DNA of 64,000 nt from contig CANQFK010000001.1 of assembly GCA_947598585.1 (NCBI GenBank), positions 62,001-126,000 on the forward strand, in the 5' to 3' direction. Made by a program: the position numbers and the translations under genes. Positions 2 through 13,880 of this stretch are shown here, in pieces. The notes beneath the pieces were generated by a model. The model saw only the letters and a program-made list of their open reading frames with translations. It was not told where the DNA came from and did not search any database. Within the stretch, counting starts at the first letter, position 1, and each line of letters begins with the position of its first letter. The stretch is from an uncultured Clostridia bacterium. Its GTDB lineage: Bacteria > Bacillota > Clostridia > Christensenellales > Pumilibacteraceae.

Positions 2-976
2 AAAGGACGGGGACTGAAAGATGCCGAACTTCATCCCGACGCTTATCACGGCATTTCGCCCGAGGGCGAATCGAAACTCAGATCCATGTCCGAAGTGGCA
101 GGCAAGACGCTTTGCGAACTTGCCGAGAGCAAAAAAATAGCCGTTGTTACCGCCGCCATGACCGACGGATTGAAGTTCAACGAATTTGCTTTGCGCTATC
201 CCGATCTTTTCTTTGACGTAGCCATAGCGGAGCAACATGCCGTATCGTTTTGCGCAGGGTTGAGCAAAAACGGCGTAAAACCGTTTTTCGGCGTATATTC
301 CACGTTTCTGCAACGCGGATTCGACCAGGTCCTGCACGACGTTTGCCTCAACGACTTGCCCGTCACGTTTCTTATCGACAGGGCGGGCGCGGTAGGCTCG
401 GACGGCGTAACGCATCAAGGCATATTCGACCTCAGCTATCTTTCGCTCATTCCCAATCTCGCCATTGCGTCCCCCAAGGACGGGACCGAATTGCGTGAAC
501 TTATCAAATTTTCCGTCGGATACGATCACCCCATGGCGATACGATACGCCAAATCTTATGAGATCGAATTTCTCGCTCACGAAGAGATAAAGTTGGGCAA
601 ATGGGAAACTTTTATAAAGTGTGATTCGCCGATAACCGTGCTTGCCGTTGGGCGTACCAACGAGATAGCTGTCAAAATAAAAAACGCAAACATAGTCAAT
701 GCGCGGTTTGTGGCGCCGCTCGACAGCGAGCTGCTCGATTCGTTGAGCGGCACGGTCATAACGCTCGAAGACAATATTTTGCACGGCGGCTTCGGAGAAG
801 AGGTCAGAAACTATCTGTACGGAAAATGCAAAGTCATAAATATCGGACACAAAAATGAGTTCTGCGACATAAGGAATGTCAAGAGCGCTTTTGAATTTTC
901 GGGACTTACCTGCGAAAATATACAAAAAATAGTGGATAACGAGCTACTTTCACTTGAAAACAGTCAAAAAGTGTAG
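2..976 (+). CDS. dxs: 1-deoxy-D-xylulose-5-phosphate synthase, 3' part
   Basis: DXS condenses pyruvate and glyceraldehyde 3-phosphate with thiamine diphosphate in the first step of the non-mevalonate isoprenoid pathway. The frame is open from the first bases, so the gene begins upstream of the window and the N-terminal thiamine-binding domain is missing. What remains is the end of that domain (KGRGLKDAELHPDAYHG, a DXS-type linker), the central pyrimidine-binding domain with the catalytic-glutamate motif IAEQHA and the DXS signature DRAGAVGSDGVTHQG, and the C-terminal transketolase-like domain. The promoter of nadK overlaps its last codons. In many Clostridia dxs is followed by tlyA; here nadK follows directly. 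Confidence 0.96.
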   Translation, partial: KGRGLKDAELHPDAYHGISPEGESKLRSMSEVAGKTLCELAESKKIAVVTAAMTDGLKFNEFALRYPDLFFDVAIAEQHAVSFCAGLSKNGVKPFFGVYSTFLQRGFDQVLHDVCLNDLPVTFLIDRAGAVGSDGVTHQGIFDLSYLSLIPNLAIASPKDGTELRELIKFSVGYDHPMAIRYAKSYEIEFLAHEEIKLGKWETFIKCDSPITVLAVGRTNEIAVKIKNANIVNARFVAPLDSELLDSLSGTVITLEDNILHGGFGEEVRNYLYGKCKVINIGHKNEFCDIRNVKSAFEFSGLTCENIQKIVDNELLSLENSQKV

Positions 977-11494: not shown

Positions 11495-12274
11495 TCAGGT
11501 CGGATCGGAATTATCGATATGTTTTTTCCGTCTTATCAAGATCACGTTGAGTACGACGGCGCCTATAAACATGATCACGGAAATAACTTGACTTGGAGAT
11601 AACCCCAAGATAAACGCGCCGCGCGGATCGTCGCGAACAAATTCGATAAGGAATCTGAACACGGAGTAGGAATAGAGGTAAATTACAGCCAAAAAATCGA
11701 GTTTGCCGAATCTGAATATAAACAAAAGCAATGTTATGCCTAACATAATCAGGAACAATGCCTCTATAAGTTGTGTCGGAACGCGCGGATCGCCGAATAT
11801 CCATTCTCCGTCCGAAGTTATGCTTTCTACAAATCTGACGCCTAAAAAGTCGGTCTTTATGCCGTAACAACAACCTGCCAAAAAGCAGCCGATCCTGCCG
11901 AAGAAATGTCCGAATGCTATGCACGGCATGGCTATATTCACTATTTTAAACAGATCCTTTTTGTAATGTTTGCCAAACAGGGCATACAGAATAAAGAATG
12001 TGACAACGCCGCCGATAAGTCCGCCCAAAAAGGTGATGCCCGTTCCGACATCGCGCGTTTCCATATAATTATAGAGCATCTGAAAAAGTCGGGAGAATAC
12101 GAAACCGAGCCCGATCGAAACTATAATTATGATACCGTAAAAGCGAAAAGATTTTTCGGAAACGGACAATTTGAAGGCTAAATATCTGAAAAGTATAAGA
12201 GCGACGAGCACTCCTATACATATAAAGATGATGTAGGACTCCAAAAATTGTGAATGAAATAAATACGGATACAT
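11495..12274 (-). CDS. lgt: prolipoprotein diacylglyceryl transferase family protein
   Basis: A 259-residue protein with about seven membrane helices, of the family that transfers diacylglycerol from phosphatidylglycerol to the lipobox cysteine of prelipoproteins. The GGLIGG and GRIGCFLAGCCYG segments place it in the family. It departs from well-studied Lgt: the residue before GGLIG is Leu rather than His, and the usual G-R-x-G-N-F-x-N-x-E signature is replaced by a cysteine-rich version. It may be the lineage's normal form or a paralogue with a changed role; two lipoproteins in this window need some Lgt. The start codon is only 9 bases from the -10 box, with no ribosome site. Confidence 0.78.
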   Translation of the reverse strand: MYPYLFHSQFLESYIIFICIGVLVALILFRYLAFKLSVSEKSFRFYGIIIIVSIGLGFVFSRLFQMLYNYMETRDVGTGITFLGGLIGGVVTFFILYALFGKHYKKDLFKIVNIAMPCIAFGHFFGRIGCFLAGCCYGIKTDFLGVRFVESITSDGEWIFGDPRVPTQLIEALFLIMLGITLLLFIFRFGKLDFLAVIYLYSYSVFRFLIEFVRDDPRGAFILGLSPSQVISVIMFIGAVVLNVILIRRKKHIDNSDPT

Positions 12275-12283
12275 TATTTATAG

Positions 12284-12312
12284 ATTATACTACTTATTTT
12301 TATTTATGTCAA
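12284..12312 (-). promoter_or_regulatory. consensus promoter of lgt, likely leaderless transcript
   Basis: On the minus strand TTGACA (12307-12312) and TATAAT (12284-12289) are both perfect consensus with a 17-base spacer. Only 9 bases separate the -10 box from the lgt ATG, so transcription should begin 2-4 bases before the start codon. Confidence 0.85.
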
Positions 12313-12325
12313 GGGGGCAAATCTG

Positions 12326-12354
12326 TTGACGAAAATTCTATTTAGTTGTATAAT
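12326..12354 (+). promoter_or_regulatory. near-consensus promoter of gatC-like/gatA, likely leaderless transcript
   Basis: TTGACG (12326-12331) and TATAAT (12349-12354) with a 17-base spacer. The ATG at 12361 is 6 bases past the -10 box, so the transcript should start at or next to the A of the ATG. The two -35 boxes of the divergent promoters are only 13 bases apart. Confidence 0.8.
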
Positions 12355-12360
12355 TTTATC

Positions 12361-12507
12361 ATGACAAAGCAAGAGTTTGACATCATAATCGGCAAGGCGA
12401 AGATCGATGTCGGCAATGACTGTGACAGGTTGTTTAATATAGTGAATGCCGCGCTCGGCTCGCTTTGTATACTTGAAGAATATGACGGAGATGCGTATGA
12501 GAATTGA
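12361..12507 (+). CDS. small GatC-like protein, 48 residues
   Basis: A short reading frame beginning MTKQEFDIIIGKAKIDVG and ending EEYDGDAYEN. Its first 40 residues follow the pattern of GatC's N-terminal helices (EVxHIAKLARLxL...LxxILxxVxxLxxxD), and it immediately precedes and overlaps gatA by 11 bases, the usual gatC position. Normal GatC is about 95 residues; the half that wraps around GatA is missing. The promoter and reading frame fit a real gene: the ATG sits 6 bases after a TATAAT box, and gatA's ribosome site (GGAG) lies within its end. Identification as GatC is inference from position and a weak pattern. Confidence 0.6.
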   Translation: MTKQEFDIIIGKAKIDVGNDCDRLFNIVNAALGSLCILEEYDGDAYEN

Positions 12508-13798
12508 TCGAATTTCCGATTTAAGACAAAAGATATTGTCGGGAGTGATTTCATCAGAGGAAATTACTCTCGAATTTTTAAGTAGGATAGAAAAAAACAA
12601 AAAGTTGAACTGCTTTATCACCATGCTTGACGCTTTGGAGCAGGCAAGGGCTGTCGACAAAAAGATCAAGGACGGTTTTGTCGGACGACTTGCGGGCATA
12701 CCCGTGGCTATAAAGGACAATATGCGTTATAAGGGCAGCGTCACGACGTGCGGATCCGCCATTTTACAAGACGCATTGCCCGACGCGTATGACTGCGAAG
12801 CCGTAAAAAAGTTGAAAGCCGAGGGTGCCGTTATATTGGGCAAAACCAACATGGACGAGTTCGCCATGGGGTCGTCAAACACATCTTCCGTTTTCGGTCC
12901 CGTACTCAATCCCTTGGATAACGGTCGTGTGCCCGGCGGAAGCAGCGGAGGTTCGGCTGTCGCGGTGAGCGCGGAACTTTGCTGTGCCGCGCTCGGATCG
13001 GATACGGGCGGAAGTATTCGTCAACCTGCGTCCTATTGCGGAGTGGTGGGATTAAAGCCGACTTTGGGCAGTATAGACGGGAACGGAATGTTTGCTTTGT
13101 CGCAGGATATGGATCAAATAGGACCTCTTACGCGAAATGTGGACGATTGCAAACTCATGTTCGAAGTTTTGAGCGGCAGAAAAACGGTCGATATCGATTG
13201 TCGCGGACTTAAAATAGGATTCATAAAGGAATTCGAGAGCCGTTATAACGACGATACGCGCAAAGTGATAGAAAAAGCCAAGGAACTTTTGTCGGACTTC
13301 GGTTGCACGTTTGTCGAACTGTCGGCTCCGTCGGTCAATGCCGCGTTTGCCGTGTATCTCGTTCTCGGCAACGCCCAGTCGGCAAATAATTTGCGTAATA
13401 TAGGCACTTCCGAAGAGCGCGGAAAGAAACTCGGCGACGAGGTGAAAAAGCGCGTAATAATAGGAGAGTACGTCCTTTCGCATCCCGAGATCGTCGATAA
13501 GGCAAAAAGGGTAAAAAGCGGAATGATCTCCGAACTTGACCGCGCGTTGAACGAATGCGACGCCATCGTTTCGCCGACGGCTCCGAGCGTTGCGTTTACG
13601 TTCGATGAAAATAGGAGCAAAGACGAGATCGTTTATTCGGATATATTCACTCAGCCTGCGAGCATTGCGGGGTTGCCCGCGTTGAGCGTGCCGTGTTATA
13701 CGCGAAACGACGGCTTGACTGTCGGCGCGCAGATAGTCGCAAGGAAAAATTCCGAAAGCCTGCTGTTCTCTTTGGGACGATTATTTGAAAATCAATAG
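12497..13798 (+). CDS. gatA: Asp-tRNA(Asn)/Glu-tRNA(Gln) amidotransferase subunit A (GatA-type amidase)
   Basis: Amidase-signature enzyme that releases ammonia from glutamine for transamidation of mischarged tRNA. The 433-residue protein has the catalytic lysine in GIPVAIKDNM, the glycine-serine stretch VPGGSSGGSAVAVSAE, and the nucleophile region LGSDTGGSIRQPASYCGVVGLKPT, which matches GatA more closely than generic amidases, as does GKTNMDEFAMGSSNTSSVFGPVLNP. It is about 50 residues shorter than usual, mainly toward the C-terminus. GGAG 7 bases before the ATG at 12497 fixes the start. gatB, which normally follows, is absent here; a CoA-transferase with its own promoter comes next. Confidence 0.88.
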   Translation: MRIDRISDLRQKILSGVISSEEITLEFLSRIEKNKKLNCFITMLDALEQARAVDKKIKDGFVGRLAGIPVAIKDNMRYKGSVTTCGSAILQDALPDAYDCEAVKKLKAEGAVILGKTNMDEFAMGSSNTSSVFGPVLNPLDNGRVPGGSSGGSAVAVSAELCCAALGSDTGGSIRQPASYCGVVGLKPTLGSIDGNGMFALSQDMDQIGPLTRNVDDCKLMFEVLSGRKTVDIDCRGLKIGFIKEFESRYNDDTRKVIEKAKELLSDFGCTFVELSAPSVNAAFAVYLVLGNAQSANNLRNIGTSEERGKKLGDEVKKRVIIGEYVLSHPEIVDKAKRVKSGMISELDRALNECDAIVSPTAPSVAFTFDENRSKDEIVYSDIFTQPASIAGLPALSVPCYTRNDGLTVGAQIVARKNSESLLFSLGRLFENQ

Positions 13799-13851: not shown

Positions 13852-13880
13852 TTGACATTTATTGCTGTATTTAATATAAT
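13852..13880 (+). promoter_or_regulatory. promoter of the CoA-transferase operon
   Basis: TTGACA (13852-13857) and TATAAT (13875-13880), both perfect consensus, with a 17-base spacer, 28 bases before the start at 13909. This separates the gene from gatA. Confidence 0.85.

Follow-up and report, generated by a model that had tools for sequence, protein, structure and literature searches.

In the window analysed here, a 64,000-nucleotide stretch of DNA from an uncultured gut Clostridia bacterium, two divergent genes are separated by a gap of 86 bp (23% GC) that holds two promoters standing back to back, each ending a few nucleotides from a start codon. An earlier note on this DNA read the gap as the source of two leaderless mRNAs that may be joined in a switch, and called for the conservation of the gap in relatives and for a genome-wide scan of the same spacing. 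The locus raises two questions, namely whether the messages of both genes begin at or near the start codon, and whether the closeness of the promoters links the expression of the two genes. At a probability of about 85%, our reading is that these are back-to-back housekeeping promoters from which the two genes would be expressed as leaderless or nearly leaderless mRNAs, as one instance of a habit found across the bacterial family.

The gene on the minus strand (11,495–12,274) is securely identified by its Pfam match (PF01790, E = 1e-33) as lgt, encoding a prolipoprotein diacylglyceryl transferase of 259 amino acids. On the plus strand, an open reading frame (ORF) of 48 amino acids (12,361–12,507), conserved as 43–48 amino acids in all eight genomes of the genus, overlaps the start of a gatA-like gene (12,497–13,798, plus strand; 433 amino acids), whose product is certain to be an amidase by its match to PF01425 (E = 2.7e-114). 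The gatA-like gene has its own Shine-Dalgarno (SD) sequence, GGAG (a 4-nt match), inside the short ORF, and would be translated from it. We call the short ORF gatC-like because of its position before gatA and its weak similarity to true GatC, the first half of which it matches colinearly (hhalign E = 0.011 at a probability of only 3.7%). The Pfam GatC family (PF02686) gave no match in this protein, nor anywhere in the genome it comes from. In another genome (G034), lgt is divergent from gatC-gatA-gatB, and a full-length GatC occupies the place of the gatC-like ORF. Of the GatCAB partners, GatA is present and GatB was not found, as GatB_N (PF02934) did not match in any of the eight genus genomes, several of which are incomplete (75–96%). 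A match to glnS was obtained in every family genome searched, and passed the family cut-off in nearly all. We infer that the operon is a GatCAB operon minus gatB and with a shortened gatC, an apparent relic. gatB was likewise not found in many other genomes of the family.

The lgt promoter consists of a TTGACA −35 box (12,307–12,312, minus strand) and, after 17 nt, a TATAAT −10 box (12,284–12,289) that lies 9 nt before the lgt ATG. The gatC-like promoter on the plus strand has TTGACG (12,326–12,331) and TATAAT (12,349–12,354), also 17 nt apart, with the ATG following after 6 nt. They score 12/12 and 11/12, respectively, and 13 bp separate the two −35 boxes; boxes, spacings and start-codon distances are as the earlier note had described them. 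When the mononucleotides of the gap were shuffled 200,000 times, a promoter scoring at least 11/12 fell 4–9 nt from one end in 80 and from the other end in 75, and at both ends in none. Sites of this strength number eight in the whole 64-kb window, two of them in this gap. A useful contrast is offered by 13,852–13,880, where a perfect TTGACA-17-TATAAT stands ahead of a gene of the acetyl-CoA hydrolase/transferase family that has an ordinary SD leader.

Within the genus, both promoters and their short spacings are kept in all eight genomes. The lgt −35 box and the gatC-like −10 box are identical throughout, the lgt −10 box is TATAAT in seven genomes and TATATT in one, and the gatC-like −35 box retains TTGAC in all. 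Pairwise identity is 92–100% across the four boxes, compared with 47–70% in the discriminators, in the spacers and in the DNA that separates the two −35 boxes. The distance from −10 box to ATG is 9, 8 and six times 6 nt for lgt, and 6 nt (five genomes) or 7 nt (three genomes) for the gatC-like ORF. The one additional conserved element is a CCCC (12,313–12,316; GGGG on the plus strand) that adjoins the lgt −35 box on its upstream side in all eight genomes.

Beyond the genus, we compared 26 scorable lgt loci of the family. The −10 box lies 6–9 nt from the lgt ATG in 21 of these, at exactly 6 nt in 18, while the remaining five are leadered, with the −10 box at 20–40 nt and an SD match of 4–6 nt in each. 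On the Lgt tree, at least two changes of state between leaderless and leadered are required. The leaderless layout occurs with several arrangements of neighbours, including in genera where the neighbour is not gatC. One genome (G011) contains a second back-to-back leaderless pair, lgt with hisH, in which both genes start 6 nt after the −10 box and 22 bp lie between the −35 boxes; in another (G030), which has a longer gap, the start codon of hisH is a GTG that follows TATAAT by 6 nt. Since the short spacing persists beside these other neighbours, hisH included, it follows the gene and the lineage rather than the pairing of lgt with gatC.

The most far-reaching reading of this distribution is that leaderless mRNA serves the whole family as a permanent alternative way of expressing genes, that lgt has been leaderless since early on, and that the lgt pairs form a coordinated regulatory device instead of a product of compact packing; taken together, we consider this unlikely. 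Another proposal links the two promoters at this locus, with a polymerase at one hindering the other, so that lgt and gatC-like/gatA would be expressed in a switch-like or balanced manner. Polymerase α-subunit contacts upstream of the two −35 boxes would overlap, and the 13-bp distance and the retention of the layout in all eight genus genomes speak for such a link. However, the −35 boxes are separated by 13 bp in six of those genomes and by 15 bp in two, and outside the genus both the partner gene and the −35 spacing change, as described for G011 and G030. Inspection of the gap by eye revealed no palindromic operator, and the layout is explained by the compact packing of a small genome. We therefore regard linkage as distinctly improbable. 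The earlier claim of two leaderless mRNAs in a switch divides accordingly: its leaderless half is well supported by conservation and by a split between genes with and without an SD, both read from sequence, while for polymerases that exclude each other we found no positive evidence; lgt has the leaderless layout beside other neighbours too.

The leaderless reading itself follows from promoter geometry. The first transcribed base usually lies about 7 nt beyond the −10 box. With a distance of 6 nt, the predicted transcript start is the A of the ATG, and the 9 nt of lgt leave 0–3 nt of leader, so that lgt is strictly to be called leaderless or nearly leaderless. From promoters of this σ70/σA type, transcripts would start at, or within about 3 bases of, the start codon, and lgt and the gatC-like ORF would therefore be translated from leaderless mRNAs. 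Ribosomes probably recognise the 5′-terminal AUG together with the initiator tRNA; we infer both this binding route and the expression level of the pair.

The SD score is 0 before both starts, while an SD match of 4 nt or more stands at an ATG close to the start of 75% of the called genes in the window, compared with 19% of random sites, in agreement with what the earlier note had observed. Alternatively, the main transcripts could have more distant upstream starts and thus leaders of the ordinary kind, leaving the close promoters as minor sites or decoys. There is precedent in C. phytofermentans, where potentially leaderless genes mostly also have an upstream start and retain a ribosome site (PMC5171806), and a weak 9/12 promoter site does occur on the minus strand at 12,362–12,335. 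Yet even a longer transcript would offer no SD before either ATG, whereas the leadered lgt relatives all have one, and the close promoters are both the best sites present and the conserved elements. Upstream starts are, in our view, very improbable.

Both ATGs are likely the true starts, judging by the conserved N-terminal residues of the two proteins. The start codon of lgt is fixed at 12,274 because P3 and L5, near the N-terminus, hardly vary in the family alignment. Miscalled start codons are common, but true starts further downstream, giving ordinary short leaders, are extremely unlikely here, as the residues right after the lgt ATG are conserved in leaderless and leadered relatives alike and the gatC-like ORF opens with MT and a conserved EF in all genomes of the genus.

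The same spacing recurs elsewhere. In the genome of origin, covered by a 371-kb sample and by whole-genome pattern searches, the pattern TTGACN-16..18-TATAAT-4..9-ATG matched 26 times, and the reversed pattern, used as control, once. The matches correspond to 25 distinct sites, 11 of them at exactly 6 nt. About half open a long ORF, including uvrB-like, csoR-like and rqcP-like genes (assigned by eye), and about half only short ORFs. Across 37 genomes of the family, 940, 398 and 647 sites have the ATG at 4–9, 10–15 and 25–30 nt, respectively, and the corresponding counts in 24 genomes from other families of the order are 219, 179 and 246. The ratio of the first class to the second is much higher in the family than outside it (p = 3e-8), and promoter-to-ATG distances peak at 6 nt.

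Among genes called with a home-made gene caller, promoter-to-start distances are bimodal, with one class at 4–9 nt and another from 16 nt upward. In this set, the contrast between the family (25/106) and outside (4/43) is not significant by itself (p = 0.07). An SD is present in 1 of 25 genes at 4–9 nt and in 50 of 60 at 16–45 nt, a contrast that owes something to geometry, as the −10 box occupies the place of an SD. In our reading, a minority of promoters in the family have their −10 box some 6 nt ahead of the start codon and do without an SD, and leaderless messages would seem to belong to the normal gene expression of the family.

Leaderless genes are a known kind, found here in a lineage for which our literature search, with most subscription journals outside its coverage, gave no earlier report. 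Using a TANNNT box located some 12 bp ahead of the start codon, Zheng et al. (2011) made predictions of such genes for 56 of 209 Firmicutes genomes, mainly those of Lactobacillales and Mycoplasma (PMC3160421). The genes described here resemble those in having a −10 box immediately ahead of the start codon, no SD and an inferred 5′-terminal AUG, but differ in their full TTGACA −35 boxes and in a host family that is not among the lineages named in that study (PMC3160421). The closest architectural parallel is Deinococcus-Thermus, where a −10 motif, mostly 6–7 bp before the ORF, precedes nearly a third of genes and drives leaderless expression, as tested by experiment (PMC12340547). In comparison, the present arrangement concerns a minority of genes, has full consensus boxes with a −35 element, and belongs to a clostridium that is otherwise SD-led. 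Mapped clostridia, which are SD-led, are of the same broad bacterial group and also have some leaderless transcripts, which amount to 2–4% of transcripts or to only 15 genes (PMC9045289, PMC5171806, PMC7438776). Unlike most such genes of C. phytofermentans (PMC5171806), the conserved leaderless-type genes here are without an SD. The same literature search returned nothing specific on leaderless genes in Borkfalkiaceae or uncultured gut Clostridia, nor on back-to-back leaderless promoters.

That lgt, the gene for a lipoprotein-modifying enzyme, would be leaderless in the majority of genera, and that each of the few leadered exceptions has an SD, makes the lgt genes of this family a natural experiment on the passage of genes from one mode of translation start to the other. 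There is also a practical consequence for metagenome-assembled genomes, in which the start codons of leaderless genes may be wrongly placed by gene finders that look for an SD.

Two further observations come from the genome-wide sites. At four loci (L064, L066, L072 and L074), the ATG that lies 6–8 nt after the −10 box opens an ORF of only 4–13 codons, just upstream of a longer ORF that mostly has an SD; these short ORFs may represent a 5′-terminal AUG or leader peptides. At the csoR-like gene (L065, 1,501–1,538; assigned by eye), whose ATG follows TATAAT by 6 nt, the promoter spacer contains the palindrome ATACCCCATGGGGTAT, which looks like an operator.
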